Assembly (NCBI RefSeq): GCF_947492455.1 | Contig: NZ_CANLNB010000003.1 | Span: forward strand, 434,001-498,000 | Length of the DNA stretch: 64,000 bases | Source of the DNA: an uncultured Aliiroseovarius sp. | GTDB lineage: Bacteria > Pseudomonadota > Alphaproteobacteria > Rhodobacterales > Rhodobacteraceae | Reading direction: 5' to 3' | Shown here: in pieces, positions 17,198 through 38,532 of the stretch | Layout: each line of letters opens with the position of its first letter | Numbering within the stretch: the first letter of the stretch is position 1 | The notes under the pieces: model-generated | Databases searched by the model: none | What the model was told of the DNA's origin: nothing | The model's input: only the letters and a program-made list of their open reading frames with translations | Translations under genes and position numbers: made by a program

Positions 17198-18031
17198 ATG
17201 AGCACACAATATTACGCACCGCACGGGGGACTTCCCGCTCAGACCCAGCTTCTGACCGATCGAGCCGTTTTTACGGATGCGTATGCCGTGATCCCTAAGG
17301 GGGTGATGCAGGATATTGTGACCAGCTTTTTGCCTTTCTGGACTGACACGCGGCTGTGGGTACTGTCGCGTCCGCTTAGTGGTTTTGCCGAGACGTTCTC
17401 GCAATACATCATGGAGGTTCAGCCGGGTGGTGGGTCTGAACGACCCGAGGACGATCCTGAGGCGCAAGCTGTGTTGTTCGTGGTCGAGGGGACCGCGACG
17501 TTGGAGGTTGCTGGTGAGGTTCACGAGCTGACGCCGGGCGGTTATGCGTATCTGCCGCCCTCAGAACGCTGGACGTTGCACAACAAAGGCGACGAGGTTC
17601 TGCGCTTTCACTGGATCCGCAAAGCCTATCAGCGTGTTGAAGGGCTGGACGCGCCTGATGTGTTGATCCTGAACGAAAAGGACATTGCGCCCACACCGAT
17701 GCCGGACACGGATGGTACATGGGCCACCACGCGGTTCGTCGACCCAAATGACCTGCGCCATGACATGCACGTGACCATCGTGACGTTCGAGCCGGGCGGG
17801 GTGATCCCATTTCTGGAAACCCATGTGATGGAGCACGGGCTGTATGTGCTGGAAGGTAAGGCGGCCTATCGCCTGAATCAAGATTGGGTCGAGGTTGAGG
17901 CCGGCGACTTCATGTGGCTGCGCGCCTTCTGCCCGCAGGCATGTTACGCAGGCGGGCCGGGGCGTTTCCGGTATCTTCTGTACAAAGATGTAAACCGCCA
18001 CATGCCGCTGCGGCTTGGTGGCGGGCGCTAA
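17198..18031 (+). CDS. allE: (S)-ureidoglycine aminohydrolase
   Basis: A 277-residue bicupin that converts (S)-ureidoglycine to (S)-ureidoglycolate and ammonia in the allantoin pathway. The C-terminal cupin holds the metal ligands Glu207, His209, His213 and Gln247, with the same spacing as the ligands I recall for E. coli AllE/YlbA (235, 237, 241, 275). The motif THVMEHGLYVLEGKAAYRLN is typical of the family, and the N-terminal cupin (about residues 60-140) is also intact. GATTAGGAG precedes the ATG. The gene sits alone between the glucose operon and bhcR, 16 kb from allA, whose enzyme acts next. Confidence 0.92.
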   Translation: MSTQYYAPHGGLPAQTQLLTDRAVFTDAYAVIPKGVMQDIVTSFLPFWTDTRLWVLSRPLSGFAETFSQYIMEVQPGGGSERPEDDPEAQAVLFVVEGTATLEVAGEVHELTPGGYAYLPPSERWTLHNKGDEVLRFHWIRKAYQRVEGLDAPDVLILNEKDIAPTPMPDTDGTWATTRFVDPNDLRHDMHVTIVTFEPGGVIPFLETHVMEHGLYVLEGKAAYRLNQDWVEVEAGDFMWLRAFCPQACYAGGPGRFRYLLYKDVNRHMPLRLGGGR

Positions 18032-18035
18032 GACG

Positions 18036-18881
18036 TCAATTCGGCTGGAATGCGATCCCGCCGATGGCTTCGGTCAGGCGGAGTGACGCGTCTATGACCG
18101 CGCGGCTTAGGCGTTCGGTTTCATTTTGACCGACGCGGCTGGTGGGGCCGGAGACCGAAATCCCAGCGACGACCTCGCCGTTCATGTCAAACACAGGCGC
18201 CGCGATGCACCGCATCCCGGCGTTTTTCTCTTCATTGTCGATGGCGTATCCACGCGTGCGGATCTGATCTAAGTCCGCACGAAGCTCTTCTGCTGTCGTG
18301 ATCGTGTGCTCGGTGAAGGCTTCAAACGTCGCGGCATCGAGCACTCGGTTCAACCGGTCCTCGTCCATATAGGCCAATACCGCCTTGCCAATTCCCGACG
18401 AGTGCATTGGCGACAGTGTGCCAGGGGGAAAGAAGGCGCGGATATTGGCGTGGGTCTCGACCTGGCTCAGGAATAGCACGGATCCTTCTTTTTCGATGCC
18501 AAGGTTCGCTGTTTCGCCGGTGGCTTCCATCAGTTTGCGTAGAATGGGGCGCGCCCGGTCGACAAGGCTGGTGCGCCGTAGGAAACGCGCGCCGATGACA
18601 AAGGCGCGGGCACCGATGAACCAGACCTGTTCGACAGTGTCGAACTCCACAAGTCCGCGCGTCTCAAGCGTTACCAGAACCCGATAGACGGTCGCCGGCG
18701 ACTGCCCCATTTCCTCGGCAATCACCGACAAGGGTTTGCCCTGCGCTTCGCTCAGATGCTCGAAAACCTCCATCGCCCGATCAAGTGATTTGATCGTGTT
18801 CTGCGCGGTTTTGTCATGCCAGTCGCGGGGGCGTCCGCGGGCCTTGCGGGTGGTTGATGTGCCGTCTTTTTGGAATTCCAT
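18036..18881 (-). CDS. bhcR: IclR-family regulator of the beta-hydroxyaspartate cycle
   Basis: A 281-residue IclR-type regulator. A basic N-terminus is followed by a winged helix (SLDRAMEVFEHLSEAQGK, then EEMGQSPATVYRVLVTLETR near residues 57-76) and a C-terminal effector domain containing GMRCIAAPVFDMNGEVVAGI. It is divergent from bhcABCD exactly as bhcR is in Paracoccus denitrificans, where BhcR binds the bhc promoter and glyoxylate lowers its affinity. Its stop lies 4 bp from the convergent allE stop. Gene identity is from context and family; ligand response is inferred from the Paracoccus protein. Confidence 0.88.
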   Translation of the reverse strand: MEFQKDGTSTTRKARGRPRDWHDKTAQNTIKSLDRAMEVFEHLSEAQGKPLSVIAEEMGQSPATVYRVLVTLETRGLVEFDTVEQVWFIGARAFVIGARFLRRTSLVDRARPILRKLMEATGETANLGIEKEGSVLFLSQVETHANIRAFFPPGTLSPMHSSGIGKAVLAYMDEDRLNRVLDAATFEAFTEHTITTAEELRADLDQIRTRGYAIDNEEKNAGMRCIAAPVFDMNGEVVAGISVSGPTSRVGQNETERLSRAVIDASLRLTEAIGGIAFQPN

Positions 18882-19047
18882 AAAAACCCTCGCATTTTAA
18901 GTGAAAAATAAATTCACAATATGAAAAAGTCAATAGATTGAAAAATAACATGAATATTCTGCTTTTCGAAAATGAAAAACGATTTCAAAAAAATATCCCT
19001 CGAAATGGACGCCCGATATTGTGGCTTCAATGACGAAGGAGAACCCC
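18882..19047 (+). promoter_or_regulatory. bhcR-bhcA divergent control region
   Basis: This 166-bp spacer is far richer in A and T than its surroundings. It holds GTGAA-N7-TTCAC (18901-18917), GAATATTC (18952-18959), TTTTCGAAAA (18963-18972), and four copies of TGAAAAA starting at 18902, 18922, 18939 and 18973. A dimeric IclR regulator would be expected to bind such repeats. I cannot say which is the BhcR operator or where the two promoters lie. Confidence 0.55.
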
Positions 19048-20241
19048 ATGAGTTTTCAAAACCCCGTTTTTATTCCGGGCCCGACCAACATCCCTGAAAG
19101 CCTGCGCAAGGCGTCTGACATGCCGACGATCGACCATCGCTCGCCGCTGTTCGGTCAGATCCTGCATCCGGCGCGCGCAGGCGTGAAGAAGATCCTGAAA
19201 AGCCAAACGGCCGAGGTCTTCATCTTCCCCTCCAGCGGCACGGGTGGCTGGGAAACGGCCCTGACCAATACGCTGTCCGCAGGCGACAAAATCCTTGCGG
19301 CGCGCAACGGTATGTTCTCGCATCGCTGGATCGACATGTGCCAGCGCCACGGTCTGGATGTGACCATCGTCGAGACCCCGTGGGGCGAAGGCATTCCGGC
19401 AGATCGCTATGAAGAAATCCTGACCGCCGACAAAGGTCACGAGATCAAAGCGGTTCTGGCCACCCACAACGAAACCGCCACGGGTGTGAAGTCTGACATT
19501 GCCGCGGTGCGCCGTGCGCTGGACGCCGCAGGCCACCCGGCGCTTCTGTTCGTTGATGGCGTCAGCTCGATCGCGTCGATGGAGTTCCGATTTGACGACT
19601 GGGGCGTTGATGTTGCGGTGACCGGTTCCCAGAAAGGGTTCATGCTGCCCGCCGGTCTGGCCATCGTGGGCTTCAGCCCCAAGGCGATGGACGCGACCAA
19701 GACAGGTACGCTGCCGCGCACCTTCTTTGACGTACACGACATGGCGAAGGGCTATGCCAACAATGCCTATCCCTACACGCCCGCAGTTGGGCTGATGAAC
19801 GGCCTGAACGAAGCCTGCAAAATGCTTCTGGATGAAGGGCTGGAAAACGTCTTTGCCCGTCACAACCGCATCGCTGAAGGTGTGCGTGCCGCCGTGGGTG
19901 CGTGGGGGCTGGAGCTGTGCGCCGCATCTCCGGACGTGTACTCGGACACGGTCAGCGCCATCCGCACGCCTGCACATTTCAACGCGACCGACATCGTAAC
20001 TTTGGCCGCCGAGAAATACGGCGTCGCCTTCGGTGTCGGGTTGGGCGAGGTCGCGGGCAAGGTGTTCCGTATTGGTCACTTGGGCAGCATGACCGACGTC
20101 ATGGCCCTGTCGGGCATCGCGACCGCCGAGATGTGCATGGTCGATCTTGGTCTGGACATCACGCTGGGTCTCGGGGTTGCCACGGCGCAGGAATACTATC
20201 GTGGAAGCGCTGCCATGAGCCATCAAGAGGCTGCGGAATGA
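19048..20241 (+). CDS. bhcA: Aspartate-glyoxylate aminotransferase (BhcA)
   Basis: A 397-residue fold-type I PLP aminotransferase of the serine-glyoxylate/alanine-glyoxylate group. The PLP lysine is Lys196 in VTGSQKGFMLPAG, and FVDGVSSIAS holds the cofactor-ring Asp170. In the beta-hydroxyaspartate cycle it transfers the amino group of aspartate to glyoxylate, giving glycine and oxaloacetate. GAAGGAGAACCCC before ATG 19048 fixes the start. It is the first of four genes in the order bhcA-B-C-D, which is what separates it from a plain serine-glyoxylate aminotransferase or PucG-like enzyme. Confidence 0.93.
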   Translation: MSFQNPVFIPGPTNIPESLRKASDMPTIDHRSPLFGQILHPARAGVKKILKSQTAEVFIFPSSGTGGWETALTNTLSAGDKILAARNGMFSHRWIDMCQRHGLDVTIVETPWGEGIPADRYEEILTADKGHEIKAVLATHNETATGVKSDIAAVRRALDAAGHPALLFVDGVSSIASMEFRFDDWGVDVAVTGSQKGFMLPAGLAIVGFSPKAMDATKTGTLPRTFFDVHDMAKGYANNAYPYTPAVGLMNGLNEACKMLLDEGLENVFARHNRIAEGVRAAVGAWGLELCAASPDVYSDTVSAIRTPAHFNATDIVTLAAEKYGVAFGVGLGEVAGKVFRIGHLGSMTDVMALSGIATAEMCMVDLGLDITLGLGVATAQEYYRGSAAMSHQEAAE

Positions 20242-20252
20242 AGGATACGTCG

Positions 20253-21203
20253 ATGTATATCCCGACCTATGACGACATGCTGGAGGCGCATGAGCGCATC
20301 CAGCCCCATATCCGCCGCACGCCGGTTCGGACCTCGGATTACCTGAACGAACTGACCGGGGCCGAGCTGTTCTTCAAGTGCGAGAACTTTCAAGAGCCGG
20401 GGGCCTTCAAGGTCCGCGGTGCCTCGAACGCGGTGTTCGGGCTGGACGAGGAACAGGCGGCCAAGGGCGTGGCCACACATTCGTCGGGCAACCATGCCTC
20501 GTGCCTGTCTTATGCCGCGATGAAGCGGGGAATTCCGTGCAACGTGGTCATGCCGCGCACTGCACCGCAGGCCAAGAAAGACACGGTGCGTCGCTATGGG
20601 GGCAAGATCACGGAATGTGAGCCGTCGACCTCGTCGCGGGAAGAAACCTTTGCGCGTGTGCAGGCCGAAACTGGCGGTGATTTCGTGCACCCCTATAACG
20701 ATCACCGCGTGATCGCGGGGCAGGGCACTTGCGCGCGCGAGTTCATCGAGCAGACCGACGGTCTGGACGCTGTTGTCGCACCCATCGGGGGCGGCGGCAT
20801 GATCTCGGGCACCTGCCTGACACTGTCGACCTTGGCCCCAGAAACGCAAGTGATCGCAGCCGAGCCTGAGCAGGCGGATGACGCCTATCGCAGCTTCAAG
20901 GCAGGCTACATCATCGCGGATGACGCACCCAAAACCATTGCGGATGGGCTGCTTGTGCCGCTGAAAGATCTGACCTGGCACTTCGTGTCAAACCATGTGA
21001 GCGAGATCTACACCGCCTCGGATCCTGAAATTATCGACGCGATGAAGCTGATCTGGAAGCACCTGCGCGTGGTCATGGAGCCGTCCAGCGCCGTACCGCT
21101 CGCCACCATCTTGAAAAATCCCGACGCGTTCAAAGGCAAGCGCGTGGGCCTGATTATCACCGGCGGCAATGTCGATCTCGACCGCCTGCCGTGGACTCTG
21201 TGA
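20253..21203 (+). CDS. bhcB: beta-Hydroxyaspartate dehydratase (BhcB)
   Basis: A 316-residue fold-type II PLP enzyme of the serine/threonine dehydratase family. Lys53 in GAFKVRGASN binds PLP, and the glycine loop PIGGGGMISG holds its phosphate. It dehydrates (2R,3S)-beta-hydroxyaspartate to iminosuccinate. Two starts are possible: ATG 20238, which overlaps the bhcA stop by 4 bases, and ATG 20253. I choose 20253 because GAAGGA lies 7 bases upstream of it and the protein then opens MYIPTYDDML, which is how I recall the Paracoccus protein opening. The gene order supports the assignment over threonine dehydratase. Confidence 0.92.
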   Translation: MYIPTYDDMLEAHERIQPHIRRTPVRTSDYLNELTGAELFFKCENFQEPGAFKVRGASNAVFGLDEEQAAKGVATHSSGNHASCLSYAAMKRGIPCNVVMPRTAPQAKKDTVRRYGGKITECEPSTSSREETFARVQAETGGDFVHPYNDHRVIAGQGTCAREFIEQTDGLDAVVAPIGGGGMISGTCLTLSTLAPETQVIAAEPEQADDAYRSFKAGYIIADDAPKTIADGLLVPLKDLTWHFVSNHVSEIYTASDPEIIDAMKLIWKHLRVVMEPSSAVPLATILKNPDAFKGKRVGLIITGGNVDLDRLPWTL

Positions 21204-21215
21204 AGGAGAATGACA

Positions 21216-22379
21216 ATGAACGCAGTGACCAATTTCGATAACCTTATCGTTGGCTTTGACGTTCCGGCCCTGCCGGGCATGGACGAGGCTGACATCCAGA
21301 CCCCCGCGCTTGTGCTGGATCTGGACGCGTTGGAGCGCAACATCAAGAAGATGGGCGACTATGCCAAGGCGCATGGGATGCGCCACAGGGTGCATGGCAA
21401 GATGCACAAATCGGTGGATGTGGCGAAGTTGCAGGAAGAACTGGGCGGCGCGGTGGGCGTCTGCTGTCAGAAAGTGTCTGAAGCCGAGGTGTTCGTGCGT
21501 GGCGGCATCAAAGACGTGCTGGTGTCGAACCAAGTGCGCGATCCGCTTAAGATTGACCGTCTGGCGCAACTGCCGAAGCTGGGCAGCCGGATCATCGTCT
21601 GTGTCGACGATCTGGATAATGTGGCCGATCTGTCGGCAGCCGCGCAGAAGCACGGTACCCAGCTGGAAATCTTCATCGAGATCGACTGTGGCGCGGGACG
21701 CTGCGGTGTGAATTCGACCGCGGATGTGATCGAGATTGCTAAGGCGATTAACGCCGCCGACAACCTGAAATTCACCGGCATTCAGGCCTATCAGGGCGCG
21801 ATGCAGCACCTTGATACCTATGAGGCACGTAAAGAGAAGCTGGACGTCGCCATCGGTATGGTGAAAGCCGCGGTGGACGGCCTGAAGGCTGAAGGTATCG
21901 AGTGCGAATTGGTCTCGGGCGGCGGCACCGGATCCTATTACTTCGAGTCCAATTCGGGCGTGTATAACGAGCTGCAGTGCGGGTCCTACGCGTTCATGGA
22001 TGCGGACTATGGCCGTATCCTCGACAAGGACGGCAAGCGGATCGACCAAGGCGAATGGGAGAATGCGTTCTTCATCCTGACCTCGGTGATGAGCCACACC
22101 AAAGCCGACAAAGCCATCGTAGACGCGGGCCTGAAGGCGCAGTCGATTGATAGCGGTCTGCCCGTGGTCTTTGGGCGCGATGATGTCGAATACATCAAAT
22201 GCTCGGACGAACATGGCGTGGTCTCGGACCCGAACGGTGCCCTGAAGGTCAACGACAAGATGCGTCTTGTGCCGGGCCACTGTGACCCGACCGCCAACGT
22301 CCATGATTGGTATGTCGGCGTACGAAACGGCAAGGTCGAAACCCTCTGGCCGGTCTCGGCACGCGGCAAGGCGTTTTAA
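21216..22379 (+). CDS. bhcC: beta-Hydroxyaspartate aldolase (BhcC)
   Basis: A 387-residue PLP enzyme of the fold-type III D-threonine aldolase-like family. The PLP lysine is probably Lys62 in RVHGKMHKS, aligned with the HAKTHK-type motif of D-threonine aldolases; a metal-binding C-terminal region (DDVEYIKCSDEHG) is also present. In the cycle it condenses glycine with a second glyoxylate to (2R,3S)-beta-hydroxyaspartate. GAAGGAG lies 7 bases before ATG 21216, whereas the in-frame ATG at 21210 is too close. It is 12 bases from the bhcB stop. Confidence 0.92.
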   Translation: MNAVTNFDNLIVGFDVPALPGMDEADIQTPALVLDLDALERNIKKMGDYAKAHGMRHRVHGKMHKSVDVAKLQEELGGAVGVCCQKVSEAEVFVRGGIKDVLVSNQVRDPLKIDRLAQLPKLGSRIIVCVDDLDNVADLSAAAQKHGTQLEIFIEIDCGAGRCGVNSTADVIEIAKAINAADNLKFTGIQAYQGAMQHLDTYEARKEKLDVAIGMVKAAVDGLKAEGIECELVSGGGTGSYYFESNSGVYNELQCGSYAFMDADYGRILDKDGKRIDQGEWENAFFILTSVMSHTKADKAIVDAGLKAQSIDSGLPVVFGRDDVEYIKCSDEHGVVSDPNGALKVNDKMRLVPGHCDPTANVHDWYVGVRNGKVETLWPVSARGKAF

Positions 22380-22426
22380 GGAACCTCTGAGGTTGGTCCG
22401 GCGACGGGCCTAACCCTCCTGAACTG

Positions 22427-22456
22427 GGTGGAGCGTCACGCTCCACCTGCTTTTTC
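22427..22456 (+). terminator. Terminator-like hairpin between bhcC and bhcD
   Basis: GGTGGAGCG (22427-22435), loop TCA, CGCTCCACC (22439-22447), then TGC and five T residues (22451-22455). It has the form of an intrinsic terminator but stands 14 bases before the bhcD start and overlaps its leader, so it would lower bhcD transcription or act as an mRNA processing point. Confidence 0.7.
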
Positions 22457-22469
22457 AAAGGACACAGAC

Positions 22470-23435
22470 ATGTATATCGTTCCAGAACGCGAGATTGCGG
22501 GCCTGATGACCCGGGAGGCCGCCTTTAGCGCGGTGGAGCAAGTTTTCGCAGCGATGGCGTCGGGCGACGCCTATAACTTCCCGGTGATCCGCGAGGCGAT
22601 TGGTCATGAAGATGCGCTTTATGGGTTCAAAGGCGGGTTTGATCAGGTTGGGCTGACATTGGGGCTAAAGGCGGGCGGCTATTGGCCCCACAATCTGGAA
22701 AAGCGCGGGCTTATCAATCACCAATCCACCGTGTTTCTGTTTGATCCGGACACCGGCAAGGCCAAGGCAATGGTGGGGGGCAACCTGTTGACCGCCCTCC
22801 GCACCGCGGCTGCGTCTTCGGTGTCGATCAAGCACCTTGCACGCGATGATGCGAAGGTGATCGGTATGATCGGCGCGGGTCATCAGGCGACGTTCCAACT
22901 GCGCGCCGCGCTTGAGCAGCGCTCGTTTGAAAAGGTGATTGGCTGGAACCTGCATCCCGAGATGCTGCCGAACCTCGAAAAGGTTGCCAGTGAGGCTGGC
23001 TTGCCCTTCGAGGCGGTTGAGCTTGATGGCATGACCGAGGCTGATGTGATCATCTCGATCACGTCCTCGTTCGACGCCATCCTTGGCGCAGGCCAAGTCA
23101 GCCCCGGCACGCATGTCGCCTGCATGGGCACGGACACCAAGGGTAAACAAGAGGTCGATCCGCAGCTTTTGGTCAAAGCAGACGTGTTCACAGATGAGGT
23201 CGCGCAGTCCATCACCATCGGTGAAGCGCAGCATGCCGTGGGGCAGGGCCTGATCCGGGACAGCGACGTGGCGCAGATCGGCGCGGTGATCAACGGGACG
23301 AACCCGGGGCGGAGCTCGGACGATCAGATCACGCTGTTTGATGGTACGGGTGTTGGGTTGCAGGACCTAGCGGTGGCCGCATCGGTCGTGGAGCTTGCCA
23401 TCGAAAAAGGTATCGCCATCGAAGTCGATTTCTGA
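22470..23435 (+). CDS. bhcD: Iminosuccinate reductase (BhcD)
   Basis: A 321-residue protein of the ornithine cyclodeaminase/mu-crystallin family. The Rossmann nucleotide-binding motif GMIGAGHQATFQ starts at about residue 132. In the cycle it reduces iminosuccinate to aspartate, regenerating the amino donor used by BhcA and so closing the loop with no net loss of nitrogen. AAAGGA precedes ATG 22470. Unlike the tightly spaced bhcA-B-C genes, 90 bases with a terminator-like hairpin separate it from bhcC. The family alone would suggest an amino-acid dehydrogenase; the gene order gives the specific role. Confidence 0.92.
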   Translation: MYIVPEREIAGLMTREAAFSAVEQVFAAMASGDAYNFPVIREAIGHEDALYGFKGGFDQVGLTLGLKAGGYWPHNLEKRGLINHQSTVFLFDPDTGKAKAMVGGNLLTALRTAAASSVSIKHLARDDAKVIGMIGAGHQATFQLRAALEQRSFEKVIGWNLHPEMLPNLEKVASEAGLPFEAVELDGMTEADVIISITSSFDAILGAGQVSPGTHVACMGTDTKGKQEVDPQLLVKADVFTDEVAQSITIGEAQHAVGQGLIRDSDVAQIGAVINGTNPGRSSDDQITLFDGTGVGLQDLAVAASVVELAIEKGIAIEVDF

Positions 23436-23456
23436 TCAGACGCACATCACAATCAG

Positions 23457-23487
23457 CGCCCGCCCGGTTCTCAGTGGCGGGCGTTTT
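23457..23487 (+). terminator. Terminator of the bhc operon
   Basis: CGCCCGCC (23457-23464), an 11-nt loop and GGCGGGCG (23476-23483) followed by TTTT. It lies between the convergent bhcD and LysR genes and touches the LysR stop codon. Confidence 0.8.
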
Positions 23488-24406
23488 ACGTTACTTGCGC
23501 GGTGTTTGCCTTCAGCATCTCCAATCCGCGGCGCGCCACGAAGTCGACCAACAGGCGGATCTTCGGATCCTGCAGCTTCTTATGCGGGTACAGGCACCCG
23601 AACATCGACGGCATGGGGCGGGCATCGGGCAAGATTTCCACCAATTGGCCGGATTGAAGATGCTCTGCCACTTCAAAAAGCGGCTTGTTGACGATCCCAC
23701 GCCCATCCAGCGCCCAGTTCAACAGAACATCACTGTCATCCGCGTCATATTTCCCCGAGACCTCAAACTTGCGATACCCAGCCTCGGTGTGAAGCGTCCA
23801 GAAATACTCGGGAGAGCGGGGATAGCGCAGCAACAAGCAGTTGTGACCCTGTAGCAGGTCATCGGGATGCTGCGGCGTGCCCGCTTGGTCTAAATATCCG
23901 GGGGTCGCGCAGAGCACCCGCATGCAGTCGGCGATTTTGCGCAGCTTCAGGCTGCTGTCATGTGGTGTGCCGACGAAGAAGGCCACGTCCAGACCGTCTG
24001 CAAGAATATCGACCTTGCGATCCGACATCCGCATCCGCACGTCGATATTCGGATTTCGATCCACAAACTCGGGCACCAACGGGGCAATGATCCGGCGCCC
24101 TGCCGCCATGGGCGCGGTCACCCGCACCGTGCCGCGCGGCGCGTCCGAGAAGCGCGCCACAACGCTTTCGGCCTCGTCCACCGTCTCCAGAATGCGCAGG
24201 GCCTCGGAATAGAACTGTTGGCCAACCTCGGTCGGGGTCAGCGACCGAGTCGTGCGATTGAACAGCCGGACCCCCAGATGCTTCTCAAGCTCTTTTATCC
24301 GTTTGCTGGCCACAGCTGGCGTCAGACGCAGGTCGCGCCCGCCCGAGGTGATGCTGCCCAGCTCGACCACGCGGCAGAAGACACGCAGGCTTTCCATATA
24401 GGCCAT
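23486..24406 (-). CDS. LysR-family regulator, divergent from xdhABC
   Basis: A 306-residue LysR-type regulator. The N-terminal winged helix (ESLRVFCRVVELGSITSGG, then TPAVASKRIKELEKHLG) is followed by a periplasmic-binding-protein-like effector domain from about residue 90. It belongs to the CrgA-type subgroup, which has NRTTRSLTPTE after the recognition helix. It is divergent from xdhA by 168 bp and so is the likely regulator of purine oxidation. A close paralogue at 36284-37201 is divergent from puuD, sharing the blocks RTTRSL-PTE, GRR-IAPLVP and DRKVD-GLD-AFF. The effector is unknown; a purine or urate is inferred. Confidence 0.88.
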   Translation of the reverse strand: MAYMESLRVFCRVVELGSITSGGRDLRLTPAVASKRIKELEKHLGVRLFNRTTRSLTPTEVGQQFYSEALRILETVDEAESVVARFSDAPRGTVRVTAPMAAGRRIIAPLVPEFVDRNPNIDVRMRMSDRKVDILADGLDVAFFVGTPHDSSLKLRKIADCMRVLCATPGYLDQAGTPQHPDDLLQGHNCLLLRYPRSPEYFWTLHTEAGYRKFEVSGKYDADDSDVLLNWALDGRGIVNKPLFEVAEHLQSGQLVEILPDARPMPSMFGCLYPHKKLQDPKIRLLVDFVARRGLEMLKANTAQVT

Positions 24407-24574
24407 TGGGGTTCCTAACTTTTCTCAAGGCACCATAGTGCCGCTGGCGCCCAGTATAGCAATTTTCAATGATCTGTTGAAAGTATTTCCCAAAACCTAT
24501 CATTTTTCCGTGCAGTCATTCGCCGTAGTCTCACCTTCATACCCGCCCGCGCGGGACAGGTTTTGGGAGGCCAT

Positions 24575-26038: not shown

Positions 26039-26050
26039 GGGGGCGACAAG

Positions 26051-28375: not shown

Positions 28376-28379
28376 ACTG

Positions 28380-30880: not shown

Positions 30881-30895
30881 CACCCTGAACCTTGG

Positions 30896-30926
30896 AGTGG
30901 GCCGCGGTGCGATCCGTCGGCCCACT
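30896..30926 (+). terminator. Hairpin between the purine permease and guaD
   Basis: AGTGGGCCG (30896-30904) and CGGCCCACT (30918-30926) form a perfect 9-bp stem around a 13-nt loop. The T-tract after it is poor, so it may mark partial termination before guaD rather than the operon end. Confidence 0.5.
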
Positions 30927-30967
30927 TCGCTTTCCGCTCACTCAAAGCAAATGAACCGGATTTCAAA

Positions 30968-32320
30968 ATGACCAACACACAGCCACGGACGCTTCTGCGC
31001 GGGCGGACGCTCGACTTCAACCGCAAGCCATTGGATGAGGCCGACACCGAGGCCTATAACTATCTGGAAGATGGCGCGATCCTGATCGTGAATGGCAAGA
31101 TCGAAGCATCCGGTCCCTATGATCAGCTGTCTGCCTGCGCGCCAGACGCGACGGTGATCGACCACCGCCCGCATCTGTTGATGCCCGGCTTTATCGACAT
31201 GCATGTCCACTTTCCTCAGGTGCAGGTGATTGCCTCGTGGGGCGCGCAGCTTCTGGATTGGCTGAACACCTATACTTTCCCAGAAGAAACCCGCTTTGCA
31301 GACGATGCGCATGCCGCTGCGATGGCCGCGCATTTCTGTGATCTGCTGACCGGTCACGGCACCACCACGGCGGTTGCCTTTGGATCCGTGCACGCGGGAT
31401 CGGTCGACGCGCTGTTCACAGAAGCCGCCAAGCGCAACATGTGCATGATCAGCGGCAAGGTCATGATGGATCGAAACGCCCCAGACGGGCTGCGGGACAC
31501 GCCACAGACGGGCTATGATGACACGAAGGCGCTGATCGAGAAGTGGCATGGCACAGGCCGCGCGCACTACGCAATCACGCCACGCTTTGCGATTACCTCG
31601 ACACCCGAACAGATGGAAATGGCGGGCGCGTTGGTGGCCGAGCATCCTGATTGTTTTGTCCAAACGCATCTGAGCGAAAACCACGACGAGATCGCCTTCA
31701 CGGCTGAACTGTATCCCGATGCGCCAGACTATCTGGGCGTTTATGAGCACTATGGATTGCTGGGTGAAAAGACCCTGCTGGGGCACGCCATTCACCTAAC
31801 CCCGCGCGAGATTGATGTGCTGGCAGACACAGGTTCGAAGCCAGTCTTCTGCCCGACCTCGAACCTGTTCTTAGGGAGCGGCTTGTTTGACGATGCAGGC
31901 CTTGCCGCGCGCGGTATTCAGAACGGGATCGCCACGGATATCGGGGCAGGGACCAGCTATTCAATGCTGCAGACCCTGAATGAAGGCTACAAGGTCCTGC
32001 AACTTCAAAACCAGAAACTGCACCCGCTTGCGGCGTTCGATTGGATCACCCGTGGCAATGCCGAGGTGCTGGGACTGTCGGATAAGATCGGATCGCTGGC
32101 CGAGGGATCGGATGCTGATATCGTGGTTTTGAACGCCCGCTCGACCCATGCGATGGACCTGCGGATGCAACGGGCCGAGACCCTATCCGAAGAGTTGTTC
32201 ATCCTGCAGATGTTGGGGGATGATCGCGCAGTTGAGCAGGTCTATGTGGCAGGGAGCGCGTCCAAATCTGTGCCAACGAGCGCTGATCCCGAGAAGCTGA
32301 CCCAACCGGTTGCGGCGTAA
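30968..32320 (+). CDS. guaD: Guanine deaminase
   Basis: A 450-residue amidohydrolase that converts guanine to xanthine and ammonia. The zinc-binding motif is DMHVHFPQ (His79, His81). The guanine-deaminase block IASWGAQLLDWLNTYTFPEE is diagnostic for this branch, and the later zinc ligands lie in FVQTHLSENHDE, LGHAIHL and IATDIGAGTS. It feeds xanthine to XdhAB encoded upstream. The ribosome binding site is weak, which with the preceding hairpin suggests lower expression than xdh. A strong bidirectional terminator follows. Confidence 0.94.
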   Translation: MTNTQPRTLLRGRTLDFNRKPLDEADTEAYNYLEDGAILIVNGKIEASGPYDQLSACAPDATVIDHRPHLLMPGFIDMHVHFPQVQVIASWGAQLLDWLNTYTFPEETRFADDAHAAAMAAHFCDLLTGHGTTTAVAFGSVHAGSVDALFTEAAKRNMCMISGKVMMDRNAPDGLRDTPQTGYDDTKALIEKWHGTGRAHYAITPRFAITSTPEQMEMAGALVAEHPDCFVQTHLSENHDEIAFTAELYPDAPDYLGVYEHYGLLGEKTLLGHAIHLTPREIDVLADTGSKPVFCPTSNLFLGSGLFDDAGLAARGIQNGIATDIGAGTSYSMLQTLNEGYKVLQLQNQKLHPLAAFDWITRGNAEVLGLSDKIGSLAEGSDADIVVLNARSTHAMDLRMQRAETLSEELFILQMLGDDRAVEQVYVAGSASKSVPTSADPEKLTQPVAA

Positions 32321-32340
32321 TCCCCGCGCGCTTCCAACAA

Positions 32341-32369
32341 AAAAGCGGCGTGAACCTCACGCCGCTTTT
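32341..32369. terminator. Bidirectional terminator between guaD and the xanthine/urate permease
   Basis: AAAAGCGGCGTGA (32341-32353), loop ACC and TCACGCCGCTTTT (32357-32369) are exactly complementary over 13 bp. A-runs and T-runs on the two sides serve both converging transcripts. Confidence 0.9.
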
Positions 32370-32390
32370 CACTTTGCTTAAGTGCCGCTC

Positions 32391-33815
32391 TTAGCCGTTG
32401 TCGCTTTTCGGCAGGGATCCCTGACCGTGTCCAGATAACCCGCCCGAGACTTCCTCGGTCGATTCATTCGACAGTTCCTCGGGAAGCACCAGGTTCAGCA
32501 CAATCGCGATCAGTGCGGCAGGCAGGATGCCCGACGTGGCCAAAACCTTGATCGTCGAGGGCAGGTGCTGCAGGGCGCCCGGCTCCAACTGAAGGCCAAG
32601 TCCCAGCGACAGCGAAATGGCGAAGATCACCATGTTGCGGCGGTTCCAGTCGACATCCGACAGCATCGAAATACCGGCCGAGGCCACCATGCCGAACATC
32701 ACGATTACACCGCCGCCCAGAACTTCGATCGGGATCGACGAGATGATCGCCCCGATCTTGGGGATAAGCCCGGCAAGGATCAGGAAGATCGCACCGATGG
32801 TCACCACGTGGCGGCTCATCACGCCGGTCATGGCAATCAGGCCCACGTTCTGGCTGAACGAGGTGTTGGGCAGGGCGCCAAACAGGCCCGAGACCGCCGT
32901 GCCAAGACCGTCAGCATAGGTTGCGCCTTGGATCTCTTTGTCAGTCGCCTCGCGTCCGGCACCACCTTTGGTAATCCCCGAGACGTCGCCAACGGTTTCC
33001 ACCGCGGAGACGAAGGACATCAGACAGAAGCCGATAATCGCCGCGACCGAGAACTCGACACCGAAGTGGAAGGGGTTCGGAAGCGCGAAGGGCGCTGCGC
33101 GGCCAACATTGCCTAGGTTCACCTCGCCGATGACGAAGGCAAAGACGTAGCCCACGATCAGGCCGATCAGAACCGCGGATACCGACAGCATGCCACGGGT
33201 ATAGAACTTAAGGCCAAGCGTGACGAAGATCACAACCAGCGCCATGGTCCAGTTGATCAGCGATCCATATTCGGGCTTGCCGATGGCCGGAACACCGCCC
33301 GCTGCATACTGAATACCAACTTTCACCAGTGCGAGACCGATCATGGTTACCACAAGGCCTGTCACCAAAGGCGGCAAGGCAAAGCGGATCCTGCCGATAA
33401 ACAGGCCAAGGAATGCGTGGAATAAGCCCCCTACGATGACCCCGCCCATCAGGACCGCGATCGCATCAACCCCTTTGCCCGCAACCAACGGGATCATGAT
33501 TGGGATGAAGGCAAAAGATGTACCCTGTACGATGGGAAGGCGTGCGCCTGCCGGGCCCAGACCGATGGTCTGGATCAAGGTGGCGACGCCTGCAAAGAAC
33601 ATCGACATCTGGATCATATAGATCATCTGTGGAAAGTCCGGGCTGTTCGAGCCGAACCCGAACCCAGCAGCCCCGCAGATGATGATGGCTGGCGTGACGT
33701 TCGAGACGAACATCGCCAGCACGTGTTGGATGCCCAAGGGCACAGCCTTGGCAAGTGGTGGTGTATAGTTGGGATCGCGCAGCTGCTCTGGCGTCCCGAT
33801 GGATGTGTTAGCCAT
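32391..33815 (-). CDS. NCS2/NAT-family xanthine or urate permease
   Basis: A 474-residue transporter with about fourteen membrane segments. It carries the nucleobase-ascorbate transporter signature QNVGLIAMTG, the form seen in xanthine and uric acid carriers such as UapA and UacT, preceded by FGALPNTSFS. Another conserved stretch, GLVVTMIGLALVKVGIQYAAGG, is typical of this branch. The C-terminus is polar. It is transcribed in the same direction as allA and the puuE-uraD fusion, 50 bases after allA, so it belongs to the urate/allantoin operon. GGGAGGAAG precedes the start. Xanthine and urate cannot be separated by eye. Confidence 0.85.
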   Translation of the reverse strand: MANTSIGTPEQLRDPNYTPPLAKAVPLGIQHVLAMFVSNVTPAIIICGAAGFGFGSNSPDFPQMIYMIQMSMFFAGVATLIQTIGLGPAGARLPIVQGTSFAFIPIMIPLVAGKGVDAIAVLMGGVIVGGLFHAFLGLFIGRIRFALPPLVTGLVVTMIGLALVKVGIQYAAGGVPAIGKPEYGSLINWTMALVVIFVTLGLKFYTRGMLSVSAVLIGLIVGYVFAFVIGEVNLGNVGRAAPFALPNPFHFGVEFSVAAIIGFCLMSFVSAVETVGDVSGITKGGAGREATDKEIQGATYADGLGTAVSGLFGALPNTSFSQNVGLIAMTGVMSRHVVTIGAIFLILAGLIPKIGAIISSIPIEVLGGGVIVMFGMVASAGISMLSDVDWNRRNMVIFAISLSLGLGLQLEPGALQHLPSTIKVLATSGILPAALIAIVLNLVLPEELSNESTEEVSGGLSGHGQGSLPKSDNG

Positions 33816-33865
33816 TTTTCTTCCTCCCTATGATGCCCGTGACGGCTCCTCTTCCGACTTCGGGC

Positions 33866-34354
33866 TTATGGCTTCTCGATTCTGATTTCCTCCTTGAACC
33901 AGTGTTCCTGCAGGTTCGGCCCCGTGCCGATCCTGTCGATCACCGCAAACTGTCCCTGATCAGAAAGGGGGGCACAGACCCCGTGCCAGGTATTGCGGTG
34001 GTAATTCACGCCCTGTCCGGGCTGTGCGATGAAGGCCACGGGTGTCCCCGGTTGGCCGCCCGCGTCCGGGGCGACGACCACCAGATAGGGTTCGCGGCTG
34101 ATCGGGATGAACGCCTGACTTCCGTCGGGGTGGCGTTCGACCATGTCCAGTGTCAGCGGCAGGCTGCGGGCCTCGGCGTCAAAGATGCTGATCCCGGCCT
34201 GTCCATCCGAAAAATCCAGCGTCGCCCGGTCATGATACCGCCCGCAAAGCCCTTGATTGATCATCTTGTCCGGCGCACCCGTGGTATCGAGCACATCGCC
34301 AAAGGGCGCAAACGCCTCGGGCGTCAGGGGCAGGGGGGTGATCGACAGGGTCAT
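33866..34354 (-). CDS. allA: Ureidoglycolate lyase
   Basis: A 162-residue AllA-family lyase that splits (S)-ureidoglycolate to glyoxylate and urea, the last step of purine-ring breakdown here. Typical family blocks are PLTPEAFAPFGDVLD at the N-terminus, VERHPDGSQAFIP with the conserved His and PLSDQGQFAVIDR near the end, and the pocket block YHRNTWHGVCAPL. The full usual length is present. Its ATG overlaps the stop of the puuE-uraD gene by 4 bases, so the two are coupled. Its product glyoxylate is the substrate of the bhc enzymes encoded 11-16 kb away. Confidence 0.93.
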   Translation of the reverse strand: MTLSITPLPLTPEAFAPFGDVLDTTGAPDKMINQGLCGRYHDRATLDFSDGQAGISIFDAEARSLPLTLDMVERHPDGSQAFIPISREPYLVVVAPDAGGQPGTPVAFIAQPGQGVNYHRNTWHGVCAPLSDQGQFAVIDRIGTGPNLQEHWFKEEIRIEKP

Positions 34355-35763
34355 GCGGCGAACTTCTCTTCCAGACGAAGCTCGGCGATGCGTTCGACCT
34401 GACGACAGGCCTCGGCAAACTCGGTGTCGCGGTCGTTGTCGATCCGGCGATGGAACGCTTCAAGGATCGTCGGCTTGGTGTTGTCCTTCACCGCGATGAT
34501 GAAGGGGAAGCCATGCTTGGTGGTGTAGCGGTCGTTTAGCTCGGTGAAGGTCGCGCGTTCCTCGTCCGTCAACATATCCAGACCGGCGCCCGCCTGTTCA
34601 GCGGTGCTTTCCGCGGTCAACCGTCCAGCCGCAGCCAGTTTCCCGGCCAAGTCGGGGTGCGCCACCAAAACGCCCAAGCGCGCCTCTTCACTGGCGCTGC
34701 GGAAGACGCGGGCGAGGGCGTTGTGGACGCCCGCAGCCGTGTCGTGGGTGGGGCCAAGCTCAAGCCCAAAGGCGCCTTCGGCAATCCAAGGGCTGTGTTC
34801 GAACACGCCGCCGAACTCGGCCACGAATGTCTGTTGGTCCATCTTGGACGGTTTCAATCTTTGCATTGGGGGGTGCTCCTTGGCCCAGTGATCGGCAATC
34901 TGTTCGCGGGTGGCGAACCAGACCCCATCGTGCGATTTGAAGTAGTCGATGACGCGTTTCAGCGCGACAGCTCGGCCCGGACGTCCGATCAGGCGGCAAT
35001 GCAGGCCGATAGAAAGGATCTTGGGCGCGCCGGAATTCCCTTCGGCATAGAGCATGTCGAAGCTGTCCTTCAGATAGCTCTCGAACTGGTCGCCATTGGT
35101 GTAGCCCGCCTGAATCGCAAAACGCATATCGTTGCAGTCCATCGTGTAGGGCACCACCAGTTGGTCCTTGCCACCGGCGGTGATCCAATAAGGAAGGTCA
35201 TCGGCGTAACTGTCTGCGATATAGGCGAAATCGCCTTCTTCTGCAGCCAGCTCCACCGTGTTCATCGAACAGCGACCGGTGTACCAGCCACGCGGGGCCG
35301 TGCCGGTGACTTCGGTGTGCAGGCGGATCGCATCGCGGATCTGTTCCCGCTCCTCATCTGGCGACATATCCTTGTGCTCGACCCATTTCAGGCCGTGGCT
35401 GGCGATCTCCCAGTTCGCAGCCTTCATCGCCTTCACTTGCTCTGGCGCACGCGCCAAAGCTGTGGCCACGCCGTAAACCGTGACGGGCAGGTCCCCAAGC
35501 AGTCGGTGCACACGCCAGAACCCGGCCCGCGAACCGTATTCATAGATGGACTCCATGTTCCAATGGCGCTGCCCCGGCCAAGGTTGCGCCCCGGTGATTT
35601 CGGACAGGAAGGCTTCGGATGCTGCGTCTCCGTGCAGGACGCAGTTCTCGCCGCCCTCTTCATAGTTCAGGACGATCTGAACGGCGATCTTTGCGTCGCC
35701 CGGCCATTTGACGACCGGTGGCTTGGCGCCGTATCCGGTCATGTCTCGTGGGTATCGTGTCAC
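34351..35763 (-). CDS. puuE: Fused allantoinase (PuuE) and OHCU decarboxylase (UraD)
   Basis: A 470-residue fusion. Residues 1 to about 300 are the PuuE-type, metal-independent allantoinase with a polysaccharide-deacetylase fold (VQIVLNYEEGGEN, GSRAGFWRVHRLL, ASHGLKWVEH). From about residue 304 the UraD domain begins; catalytic His369 is in VAHPDLAG and the C-terminal block is NDRYTTKHGFPFIIAVK. UraD decarboxylates 2-oxo-4-hydroxy-4-carboxy-5-ureidoimidazoline to S-allantoin, and PuuE opens allantoin to allantoate, so one protein does two successive steps. The start is a GTG at 35763 with AAAGGGA before it. Such fusions are known in Proteobacteria. Confidence 0.93.
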   Translation of the reverse strand: MTRYPRDMTGYGAKPPVVKWPGDAKIAVQIVLNYEEGGENCVLHGDAASEAFLSEITGAQPWPGQRHWNMESIYEYGSRAGFWRVHRLLGDLPVTVYGVATALARAPEQVKAMKAANWEIASHGLKWVEHKDMSPDEEREQIRDAIRLHTEVTGTAPRGWYTGRCSMNTVELAAEEGDFAYIADSYADDLPYWITAGGKDQLVVPYTMDCNDMRFAIQAGYTNGDQFESYLKDSFDMLYAEGNSGAPKILSIGLHCRLIGRPGRAVALKRVIDYFKSHDGVWFATREQIADHWAKEHPPMQRLKPSKMDQQTFVAEFGGVFEHSPWIAEGAFGLELGPTHDTAAGVHNALARVFRSASEEARLGVLVAHPDLAGKLAAAGRLTAESTAEQAGAGLDMLTDEERATFTELNDRYTTKHGFPFIIAVKDNTKPTILEAFHRRIDNDRDTEFAEACRQVERIAELRLEEKFAA

Positions 35764-35927
35764 GTGGTTTCCCTTTGCTAGTCTTGAATGTCATTCTAGG
35801 TCAGAAAATCTGCGCACACTTTCAAAATAAATAAGAAGGATTGTTTGGCAGTCGGGCTCTGTGTGCGTCTGCGCATCCAGACTAAGAAGAGGGTGCCAAG
35901 CAAAAGCCCATATAGGAGACACCGAAG

Positions 35928-36281
35928 ATGACAGGCTACCTGACCACGCATGTGCTTGATACCGCCCGCGGGTGTCCCGCTGAGGGCTTGAAGATCGAGC
36001 TGTTTCGGCTGGATGGCGCTGAGCGCACCCTGCTTAAGACGCTGGTGACCAACGACGATGGCCGGACCGATGAACAGATCCTGCCTGCCGAGACATTTGA
36101 GACCGGCGAGTATGAGCTTGTGTTTTACGCGGGGGATTACCTAGACAGCATCGGTGTTCCGCCTGAAGCGCCCCGATTTCTGGATGTGATCCCGCTGCGC
36201 TTTGGCATGTCCGAGGCATCGCACTATCACGTGCCACTGCTTCTATCGCCCTTCGGGTATTCGACCTATCGGGGCAGCTGA
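35928..36281 (+). CDS. uraH: 5-Hydroxyisourate hydrolase
   Basis: A 117-residue transthyretin-like enzyme. The N-terminal motif [11 protein letters not shown] and the C-terminal [18 protein letters not shown], ending in the diagnostic YRGS, are both present; a conserved Arg-Thr pair lies in DGRTDEQIL. It hydrolyses 5-hydroxyisourate, the product of urate hydroxylase, to the OHCU substrate of UraD. No signal peptide is seen, so it is cytoplasmic. It is divergent from puuE-uraD over a 164-bp spacer and convergent with the LysR gene, whose stop is only 2 bases away. Confidence 0.95.
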
Positions 36282-36283
36282 GC

Positions 36284-37201
36284 CTAGCCCTGATCCGAGC
36301 TGCGGATGCTGGTGGCGATCCGGTCGATCACGAACTCCATGAACAATCGTGACTTAGGGTCCTGACCGCGCCGGTGCGTGAACAAACACGCCATCTGGAT
36401 CGGTTCGGGCGGGGTTTCGGTGGCGACGGGCACCAGCCGCCCTGATTTCAGGTGTTCAGAAATTTCGAAAACCGGCTTCATCGCGATGCCATTTCCACCC
36501 AGCGCCCAATCGGTCAGTACATCCCCGTCATCCGATTCATAGCGCCCCGTCACGCGAAAGCGTTTCGGGCCGTCTTTCGTGGTCAGCAGCCACTGAAATT
36601 CGGTCGCGCCGGGGAAGCGCAGGTTCAGGCATTCATGCCCATCGTTGATAAGGTCATCGCCGTTTTGCGGCATGCCGCGTTGCTTAATATACTCAGGCGT
36701 CGCGCAGAGGACGCGTTCGACATCCGCGATCTTGCGGATCTTGAGGTTGCTGTCCTCCGGCTGCCCAAGGAAGAACGCCAGATCCAGCCCCTCGGTCGTC
36801 AGGTCCACTTTGCGGTCGGTCAGGCGCAGGCGCACGCTGACTTCCGGGTACTTCTTCAGAAAGTCCGGCACCAAGGGGGCGATCAGACGCCGTCCGACTC
36901 CCAACGGGGCAGCAACATAGAGCGGTCCACGCGGATTGTCCGTAATATCAACAATTTGCGCCTCGGCGTTTTCGACCGCTTCAAGGATTTCCGTTGCGCC
37001 GCGATAGAACCTTTCGCCCTGTTCCGTGGGGGCCAGACTGCGTGTGGTGCGTTGAAATAATCGGACGCCCAGATAATCCTCGAGCTGTGAAATGCGCGAG
37101 GAAGTCACCGCAGGCGACACCCGAAGGTCGCGTCCCGCAGCGGACATGCTGCCCAATTCATAGACGCGGACAAAGGTTCGGATGTTGGCGAGATAGGACA
37201 T
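36284..37201 (-). CDS. LysR-family regulator, divergent from puuD
   Basis: A 305-residue LysR-type regulator with an N-terminal winged helix (ANIRTFVRVYELGSMSAAG, then SPAVTSSRISQLEDYLG) and an effector domain from about residue 90. It is a paralogue of the regulator at 23486-24406, with the same CrgA-type layout and many shared blocks (RTTRSL-PTE, RKVD, SGRLVP versus SGQLVE). It faces puuD over 98 bp that contain a near-ideal LysR box at 37226-37246. The natural reading is that it controls urate oxidation, and the paralogue controls xanthine oxidation. The inducer is not known. Confidence 0.88.
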   Translation of the reverse strand: MSYLANIRTFVRVYELGSMSAAGRDLRVSPAVTSSRISQLEDYLGVRLFQRTTRSLAPTEQGERFYRGATEILEAVENAEAQIVDITDNPRGPLYVAAPLGVGRRLIAPLVPDFLKKYPEVSVRLRLTDRKVDLTTEGLDLAFFLGQPEDSNLKIRKIADVERVLCATPEYIKQRGMPQNGDDLINDGHECLNLRFPGATEFQWLLTTKDGPKRFRVTGRYESDDGDVLTDWALGGNGIAMKPVFEISEHLKSGRLVPVATETPPEPIQMACLFTHRRGQDPKSRLFMEFVIDRIATSIRSSDQG

Positions 37202-37266
37202 TATTCTGTTTTTTTTGATGCTGCTTGGTATTTAGCAGCAATACCAGAATAAATATGCTTAGCATA
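37202..37266 (+). promoter_or_regulatory. Nested inverted repeats in the LysR-puuD spacer
   Basis: TGGTATT (37226-37232) and AATACCA (37240-37246) form a perfect 7-bp inverted repeat with a 7-bp spacer, fitting the T-N11-A LysR box. Outside it TTATTCTG (37201-37208) pairs with CAGAATAA (37245-37252). A third palindrome, TATGCT-T-AGCATA, lies at 37254-37266, close to the expected puuD promoter. Confidence 0.65.
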
Positions 37267-37299
37267 GAGTGTCGCTAAGACGAAAACTGGAGGTATGCC

Positions 37300-38532
37300 A
37301 TGTACGACTTGGCAATTATGTGGGACTGGATCGCGTTTTCTGTGCGGTGGCTGCACGTCATCACCGCGATGGCGTGGATCGGGGCGTCATTCTATTTCAT
37401 CGCGCTTGATCTGATGCTGAAACCCAATCCCAATCTGCCCGACGGCGCCTATGGCGAAGAATGGGAAGTGCACGGCGGCGGGTTCTATCACACGGTCAAA
37501 TACCTTGTTGCCCCGTCAGAAATGCCCGAGCATCTGACATGGCACAAATGGCAAAGCTACACGACATGGCTGTCAGGCGCGGCGCTGTTGATGATCATCT
37601 ATTGGGTGGGAGGCGAGCTGTTCTTGCTGGACCCAACCAAAGCGGATCTGTCTCTATGGCAGGGCATTCTGATCTCGGGCGGGTCGCTGACAATTGGGTG
37701 GTTGCTCTATGACCAGATGTGCAAATCGAAGCTGAGTGAAAACCCGACGCTTCTGATGCTGCTGTTGTTTGTCATTCTTGTGGCGATGTCCTGGGGCTAT
37801 AACCAGATATTCACCGGTCGCGCGGCCCTGCTGCATTTGGGTGCGTTCACTGCGACCATCATGACCGCCAATGTGTTTTTCCAGATCATGCCCAACCAAC
37901 GCATTGTTGTGGATGACCTGAAGAATGGCCGCACGCCGGATGCGAAATACGGCAAGATCGCCAAGGTGCGCTCGACCCACAACAACTATCTGACCCTGCC
38001 GGTCGTGTTCCTGATGCTGGCGAACCACTATCCGTTGGCGTTCGGTACCCAGTATTCTTGGATCATTGCCAGCCTGATCTTCCTGACGGGTGTGACCATC
38101 CGCCACTACTTCAACACCATGCACAAAACGGGCAAGGGGCCGAACTGGACGTGGTTGGTGACGGTTCTTCTGATGATCGTGATCGCGTGGCTGTCGACAG
38201 TACGAACCGGCGAGACATACGAAGATGCCGAGGCGCGTGAGATGACCGATTTTGAACAGAAGTATGCCGCGGCCGATGGGTTTGAGGATGCGTTCTACGC
38301 CGTTGTCGGCAACTGTGCGATGTGCCACGCCCGCGAGCCGTCATGGGATGGCATGTACTGGGCACCGAAAGGCGTGGTTCTAGAGACCGAAGCAGACGTG
38401 GCGCGTCATGCCAAGCAGGTCTACCTGCAGGCGGGCGCATCCCACGCCATGCCGCCACCCAATGCGATCGAGATGGATCAGGAAAGCCGCGACTACATCG
38501 TGGCGTGGTATCAGGGGGCTACGTCCAACTAA
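37300..38532 (+). CDS. puuD: Urate hydroxylase PuuD, membrane-bound with cytochrome c domain
   Basis: A 410-residue PuuD-type urate oxidase. The first 300 or so residues hold about eight membrane helices and the N-terminal motif VRWLHVITAMAWIGASFYFI; after residue 325 a soluble cytochrome c domain follows with the heme motif CAMCH (Cys339, Cys342, His343) and a downstream SHAMPPPNA with the likely axial Met. The protein oxidises urate to 5-hydroxyisourate and should pass electrons to the respiratory chain rather than to oxygen directly. CTGGAGG precedes the ATG. No UOX/uricase or HpxO gene is nearby, so this is the urate-oxidising enzyme of the cluster. Confidence 0.93.
   Translation: MYDLAIMWDWIAFSVRWLHVITAMAWIGASFYFIALDLMLKPNPNLPDGAYGEEWEVHGGGFYHTVKYLVAPSEMPEHLTWHKWQSYTTWLSGAALLMIIYWVGGELFLLDPTKADLSLWQGILISGGSLTIGWLLYDQMCKSKLSENPTLLMLLLFVILVAMSWGYNQIFTGRAALLHLGAFTATIMTANVFFQIMPNQRIVVDDLKNGRTPDAKYGKIAKVRSTHNNYLTLPVVFLMLANHYPLAFGTQYSWIIASLIFLTGVTIRHYFNTMHKTGKGPNWTWLVTVLLMIVIAWLSTVRTGETYEDAEAREMTDFEQKYAAADGFEDAFYAVVGNCAMCHAREPSWDGMYWAPKGVVLETEADVARHAKQVYLQAGASHAMPPPNAIEMDQESRDYIVAWYQGATSN

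Follow-up and report, generated by a model that had tools for sequence, protein, structure and literature searches.

Beta-hydroxyaspartate cycle genes beside a purine breakdown route in Aliiroseovarius and other Rhodobacterales: a probable carbon sink for purine-derived glyoxylate

Why do the genes of the beta-hydroxyaspartate cycle (BHAC), the bhc genes, stand among genes of purine breakdown? This question is raised by a stretch of 64,000 nucleotides from an uncultured Aliiroseovarius sp. of the order Rhodobacterales (contig NZ_CANLNB010000003.1, positions 434,001 to 498,000), which was analysed as a whole and is called the window here (G000:C3:434001-498000; genome of 3.09 Mb on 12 contigs). 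By BhcC identity, Aliiroseovarius sp. S1123 (98%) and A. marinus (97%) come closest to it among named relatives, judged on the best 80 of 587 candidates. We found that the pairing of bhc and purine genes is real and recurs across genera, and that linkage to glycolate oxidase does not account for it. Judged from genome context, the bhc genes of the window probably act as a carbon sink for purine-derived glyoxylate, with glycolate probably as a second input, and the block is most likely one functional module, a new combination of known parts.

The initial annotation had placed its named genes at positions 17198 to 38532 with nothing but regulators between them. Both statements hold: the open frames lie where they were claimed, NCBIfam or Pfam cut-offs were passed (one permease is treated below), and only BhcR and two LysR genes interrupt the enzyme, accessory and transporter genes. 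Gene identities follow the curated equivalog cut-offs of NCBIfam, with AllA assigned by Pfam only; scores are given in bits as score/cut-off. bhcR, encoding the IclR-type regulator of the cycle (18036..18881, minus strand; NF045644, 398.4/350; domains IclR_C and HTH_IclR), diverges from bhcA across a gap of 139 bases. The enzyme genes bhcA to bhcD are contiguous on the plus strand, and all four pass their equivalog cut-offs. They encode L-aspartate--glyoxylate aminotransferase (bhcA, 19021..20241; NF045640, 746.9/650; profile match from residue 10, so that the true start is probably near 19048), beta-hydroxyaspartate dehydratase (bhcB, 20241..21203; NF045641, 585.5/550; start codon not fixed), 3-hydroxy-D-aspartate aldolase (bhcC, 21210..22379; NF045642, 764/690) and iminosuccinate reductase (bhcD, 22428..23435; NF045643, 587.9/500; match from residue 15, the true start probably being the ATG at 22470). 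Intergenic gaps in the block do not exceed 164 bases, and their minimum of -13 depends on the hand-set bhcB start. A strong stem-loop followed by a T-rich stretch lies at 22425-22449, between bhcC and the likely bhcD start (fold z -2.8); terminator-like signals occur in 16 of 96 other bhcC-bhcD gaps versus 40 of 1940 simple shuffles (this total includes 20 shuffles of an empty window row).

One might ask whether BhcA serves purine breakdown directly, as a ureidoglycine-glyoxylate aminotransferase like PucG and outside the BHAC. PucG (3isl) and a ureidoglycine-glyoxylate aminotransferase (3nnk) are indeed among its relatives in the PDB; yet BhcA exceeds the BhcA equivalog cut-off, it matches 6pk1, deposited as serine--glyoxylate aminotransferase, with 382 bits versus 117 and 93 for the PucG-type entries, and bhcA stands directly ahead of bhcB, bhcC and bhcD in the window as well as in five of six plasmid regions (the sixth, from Phaeobacter, has no bhcA). 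We thus regard this idea as extremely unlikely.

The purine genes surround the bhc set. Upstream lies allE for (S)-ureidoglycine aminohydrolase (17198..18031, plus strand; NF008373, 536.7/445; PDB entry 1sq4, 'Glyoxylate-induced Protein', 478 bits). Downstream, LysR-type regulator 1 (23486..24406, minus strand; LysR domains), whose homologue adjoins xdhA in other layouts, diverges from the plus-strand xanthine dehydrogenase genes xdhA (small subunit, 24563..26038; TIGR02963, 676.2/467), xdhB (molybdopterin subunit, 26051..28375; TIGR02965, 1321.7/849.5) and xdhC (accessory protein, 28380..29231; TIGR02964, 272.5/161.6). These are followed by a membrane permease gene (29297..30880, plus strand) and guaD for guanine deaminase (30968..32320, plus strand; TIGR02967, 562/375.4). 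On the minus strand follow a pbuX-like NCS2 xanthine permease gene (32391..33815; TIGR03173, 436.7/414.15), allA for ureidoglycolate lyase, the glyoxylate-releasing step (33866..34354; PF04115, 200.8/23), and a puuE-uraD fusion for allantoinase and OHCU decarboxylase (34351..35763; TIGR03212, 501.4/424.6; TIGR03164, 204.7/96.25). The block closes with uraH for hydroxyisourate hydrolase (35928..36281, plus strand; TIGR02962, 123.7/87.45), LysR-type regulator 2 (36284..37201, minus strand; LysR domains), whose homologue stands between uraH and puuD in other genera, and, divergent from it, puuD for the integral-membrane urate oxidase (37300..38532, plus strand), which has no NCBIfam match and passes the Pfam cut-off for PF06181 (434.8/26.9). 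As to the permease at 29297-30880, called a purine permease in the initial annotation, the permease gene itself is present, while the name derives from a gene of 82% identity annotated as xanthine/uracil/vitamin C permease; the protein, probably a nucleobase transporter, has no Pfam family and no PDB match by sequence. It comprises 527 residues, shows 72-100% identity in 11 relatives, lies beside guaD in other loci as well, and its predicted structure is of low confidence (mean pLDDT 38.5).

Does this set suffice for a route from purines to oxaloacetate? Of the purine-ureide route, xanthine dehydrogenase, urate oxidase, UraH, UraD, allantoinase, AllE and ureidoglycolate lyase are all encoded in the block: XdhABC, PuuD, UraH and the UraD domain cover xanthine to allantoin, and PuuE covers allantoin to allantoate. 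For the proposed route from guanine or xanthine to oxaloacetate in one region, a separate gene for allantoate hydrolysis (allC or alc) was not identified in the block. Allantoicase gave no match at E 1e-10 in the genome of the window; 2 of 80 genomes and 0 of 14 control genomes matched. The sole AllC-like M20 protein of the genome (E 1e-5), although scored 'allantoate amidohydrolase', was taken as a pyrimidine enzyme since its gene lies near dihydropyrimidinase, PreA and ABC-transporter genes. AllE also passes NF040771 (512.3/350), whose model name is bifunctional allantoicase/(S)-ureidoglycine aminohydrolase, and may for this reason act on allantoate as well, which makes the step plausible within the block; its homologues in four plasmid regions carry the same bifunctional annotation.

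AllA enzymes split ureidoglycolate into urea and glyoxylate. In the window, guanine, xanthine or urate would be converted by the block enzymes to allantoin and further to ureidoglycolate, AllA would release urea and glyoxylate from the latter, and BhcA to BhcD would turn two glyoxylate into one oxaloacetate without loss of CO2. By such a route purines would give carbon as well as nitrogen. Glycolate-derived glyoxylate, formed by the products of an unlinked glcDEF set, would enter the same cycle.

If the two pathways belong together, their genes should be found together elsewhere, and the initial annotation had proposed a survey of the distance between bhc genes and allA or puuD throughout the order. 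BhcC exceeded its cut-off (NF045642) in 167 of 292 genomes, and 148 of these, in which the place of bhcC was listed, were surveyed. On the contig of bhcC, allA lies within 5, 10 and 20 kb in 39, 53 and 60 genomes, respectively, whereas uniform placement in genomes of 4.1 Mb would put it within 20 kb in about 1.4 of the 148. For 80 of the 88 genomes without a near allA, puuD was searched: it was found in 76 and stood within 20 kb of bhcC in 12. Altogether, bhcC is linked to allA or puuD at 20 kb in 72 of 148 genomes and 36 of 65 genera. Among 17 further bhcC genomes, at least 5 have allA within 4 kb. Since draft contigs are involved, these counts are lower bounds; the genomes counted are not independent of one another, contrary to what a McNemar test on them assumes. 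Linkage was also seen in named Stappia and Oricola genomes, in one metagenome-assembled genome of Nitratireductor and on plasmids; the association thus reaches beyond close relatives, a point on which the initial annotation had made its proposal depend.

The arrangement itself is variable. We compared 100 loci, 80 named ones and 20 chosen because allA is far from bhcC; the named loci are the best 80 of the 587 candidates by similarity to the window's BhcC and hence not an unbiased sample, and some layouts are short where contigs end. In 47 of the 100, at least one purine gene (identity of at least 45%) stands beside bhc. The order allE-bhc-lysR-xdh is found in the window and in Aliiroseovarius, allE-bhc-pbuX-allA-puuE in Ruegeria and Leisingera, bhc-perm-guaD-uraH in Shimia, bhc-pbuX-allA-allE in Defluviimonas, and xdh-perm-guaD-allE-bhc-pbuX-allA in Halovulum and Roseovarius albus. 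Paracoccus carries allE-puuE before bhc and uraH-puuD after it, and in Cribrihabitans one arm is inverted. Because the layouts differ, the proximity of bhc and purine genes has evidently survived rearrangement. Even among the 20 'far' loci, four (L109, L113, L115 and L124) have other purine genes beside bhc, and no neighbour family recurs in three or more of these 20 regions besides purine genes and likely antisense frames. In three loci, from Thalassovita, Salipiger and strain KLH11 (L023, L052 and L054), bhcB-bhcC-bhcD occurs without an adjacent bhcA/bhcR pair.

Plasmids carry the combination as well. Plasmid records matched BhcC in 138 cases (E 1e-60) and AllE in 308 (E 1e-80), two sets that may overlap. 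Six plasmid regions were read, and in four of them bhcRABCD is accompanied by purine genes. Pseudosulfitobacter plasmid P2 (108.6 kb, from a Skeletonema culture) holds them in one unbroken run of about 21 kb: allA, puuE, uraH, LysR, puuD, LysR, xdhABC, permease, guaD, allE, a hypothetical gene and bhcRABCD. A 428-kb plasmid of the same genus carries puuD, xdhABC, permease, guaD, allE and bhcRABCD, and the Leisingera aquaemixtae plasmid (108.7 kb) modABC, allE, bhcRABCD, an AmiS/UreI-type transporter, NCS2, allA, puuE, uraH, puuD and xdhABC. On the Defluviimonas plasmid (L138), allE-bhcRABCD is accompanied by nucleobase transporter genes, with allA about 13 kb further on; genes for malic enzyme and pyruvate dehydrogenase stand between bhcD and allA there, a possible onward route from oxaloacetate. 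The pairing across genera and plasmids suggests that purines are used as a source of carbon as well as nitrogen. One might speculate further that purine-derived glyoxylate is a principal, perhaps even the original, BHAC substrate in one of its lineages, and that a transferable, often plasmid-borne 'purine carbon' module with both pathways circulates among marine, partly diatom-associated Rhodobacterales; we consider this possible but tentative.

A distinct set was found on the Phaeobacter gallaeciensis plasmid pP75_g (L135; 31.9 kb, typed conjugative), which encodes bhcB and bhcC without bhcA or bhcD. The two genes sit behind LysR, TRAP-transporter, RidA and FAD-oxidoreductase genes, and the arrangement resembles an operon by which free 3-hydroxyaspartate would be taken up and used. 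BhcC matches of the same identity (84.8%) occur on 30- and 39-kb plasmids of Roseovarius and Yoonia.

In Paracoccus denitrificans, bhc expression depends on BhcR, which responds to glyoxylate; a two-site BhcR model has been proposed there, and a potential palindromic site before bhcA was noted (PMC11323563). The window holds a single exact match to TGAAA-N5-TTTCA, at 18973..18987 (plus strand), about 60 bases ahead of where bhcA probably starts, and near bhcR a candidate with one mismatch (18902..18916, plus strand), which overlaps a promoter-like match on the minus strand (consensus match only). Both candidates fit the two-site model proposed for P. denitrificans. The exact motif occurs in 60 of 89 bhcR-bhcA gaps, while Markov resampling gave a mean of 0.16 and at most 2 in 200 draws. 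In 1.93 Mb from the 100 loci, 68 of 71 exact sites fall into this gap, and the other three are all over 1.4 kb away from any gene tested. When up to two mismatches are allowed, the whole set found in the window is near chance (26 sites, shuffled mean 18.5, 5 of 100 shuffles as high). TGAAA-N5-TTTCA is a likely, predicted BhcR site. Glyoxylate would then be the likely inducer, with BhcR acting at the palindrome before bhcA, and the two LysR regulators would control the purine genes. We infer BhcR binding, induction, the LysR roles, the action of AllE on allantoate and the flux itself.

Several observations narrow or weigh against the reading of bhc as the sink for purine-derived glyoxylate and are gathered here. 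By the allA and puuD tests, 76 of the 148 surveyed genomes are unlinked (8 of them by the allA test alone), and AllA is matched in 285 of the 292 genomes (E 1e-10) versus 167 with bhcC over cut-off. In 20 sampled genomes where no bhcC exceeds the cut-off, puuE is retained beside allA in all 20 cases. Around 48 unlinked bhc loci, neighbours do recur: up to 15 loci, most of them from Ruegeria, share one context (LysR- and inositol-monophosphatase-like, judged by eye), and 7 have an ABC-transporter ATPase. On the R. pomeroyi megaplasmid bhcRABCD stands alone, with no purine neighbour within 16 kb. The genome of the window has its own glcDEF set at about 297 kb of contig C3, some 158 kb from bhc, in which GlcE and GlcF pass curated cut-offs and flank a GlcD-like gene below cut-off. 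Of the 89 bhcR-bhcA gaps, 29 (including those of L057, L064 and L073) have no exact site, and no exact BhcR-like site precedes allE, allA or xdhA in the window. Finally, in a tree of joined BhcABCD segments (quick method; 90 of 101 loci, 11 having no usable copy of one protein), a group of 29 rows is free of linked loci (26 are unlinked and 3 could not be judged), although the branch that sets it apart has weak support (17). Of the other 61 rows, 43 are linked, 15 are unlinked and 3 could not be judged. Strains of Ruegeria occur in both parts of the tree, which suggests replacement or transfer. Two Marinobacterium loci (L027 and L039) carry bhcABCD of the unlinked group; Marinobacterium belongs to the Gammaproteobacteria.

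Could the neighbourhood then be incidental, with purine genes supplying nitrogen, bhc serving algal glycolate, and both placed together by inheritance of a genomic island? The glcDEF set of the genome would suit this explanation, and so would P. denitrificans, in which the BHAC is described for glycolate (PMC11323563); the bhc genes of the window, by contrast, adjoin a purine route. Moreover, linkage clusters on the tree, with 10 changes versus 30.2 in shuffles, as common descent would give. However, glycolate oxidase failed as a genomic partner of bhc: a glcD-like gene (matching TIGR00387 with an E value no higher than 1e-115, though never above that model's curated cut-off: 0 of 80 and 0 of 68) was found in 147 of the 148 genomes, yet the best one is within 20 kb of bhcC in none, versus 60 for allA, and within 30 kb in one. 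Proximity kept in several rearranged layouts, the gene set on plasmids and the linkage in the Stappia, Oricola and Nitratireductor loci argue in the same direction, and we consider a purely incidental neighbourhood very unlikely. The initial annotation had left open whether the bhc genes assimilate purine carbon rather than, or as well as, glycolate. 'As well as' is better supported, because 76 of 148 genomes are unlinked, an unlinked bhc group exists and the genome has its own glcDEF.

What do genomes without bhcC over cut-off tell? Since all 20 sampled keep puuE beside allA, purine breakdown as such does not require bhc. Their allA regions contain no bhc enzymes at clear identity, and in two of the genomes (G120 and G166) BhcC is matched weakly. 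The surroundings of allA were searched for a replacement gene, and no new family occurs in three or more of the 20 except likely antisense frames; the longest-frame gene picker could miss partners. At one of these 20 loci (L101), in a genome without a BhcC match, a gene 47% like BhcR adjoins allA. These genomes bear on a milder form of the favoured reading that is compatible with it, namely that bhc beside purine genes mainly detoxifies glyoxylate, with purines as a nitrogen source and little net carbon gained. Established chemistry lends it some weight, purines being nitrogen-rich with one glyoxylate per ring, as do genes annotated as AmiS/UreI family transporters, possibly for urea, in the bhc neighbourhood of two plasmids, those of Leisingera and Defluviimonas. 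On the other hand, a four-enzyme cycle that makes oxaloacetate goes beyond the needs of detoxification, and the 20 genomes keep allA and puuE without bhcC over cut-off. We therefore hold a mainly detoxifying role to be rather unlikely and prefer the carbon sink.

Compared with known systems, the window resembles P. denitrificans in its four enzymes, in an IclR-type BhcR divergent from bhcA and in glcDEF elsewhere in the genome (PMC11323563). The allantoin-glyoxylate regulon of Escherichia coli (allA, gcl, AllR) is similar in placing a glyoxylate sink under an IclR-family regulator; DNA binding of AllR on gcl and allS-allA falls with glyoxylate (PMC11323563). E. coli differs in using glyoxylate carboligase and the glycerate pathway, in which CO2 is lost, while the BHAC loses none and gcl is not matched here: at E 1e-150, 0 of 80 genomes matched (40 with bhcC over cut-off and 40 without any BhcC match), the genome of the window included, and the E. 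coli control was positive. Among the texts seen, one relates purines and allantoin, as origins of glyoxylate, to the BHAC, in an introductory sentence (PMC11323563). In the literature searched, mostly at abstract level so that a prior mention is possible, no published report of bhc-purine gene linkage was found. Ruegeria pomeroyi DSS-3, a marine member of the Rhodobacterales, is said, in work by Cunliffe from 2016, to use xanthine for growth, glyoxylate being formed on the way; unlike the window, its megaplasmid carries bhcRABCD without purine genes within 16 kb.

Apart from the block, the window encodes a large protein at 60501-63962 with POR and DUF6537 Pfam domains, which we take to be probably an indolepyruvate:ferredoxin oxidoreductase.

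What is known of the cycle in the sea concerns its use for glycolate from algae. If purines feed it, dissolved purines would supply marine bacteria with cell carbon and not just with nitrogen. Gene surveys that count bhc as a marker for glycolate would then be misread. The linkage makes the purine question directly testable in culturable strains, some of which carry the set on a 108-kb plasmid.

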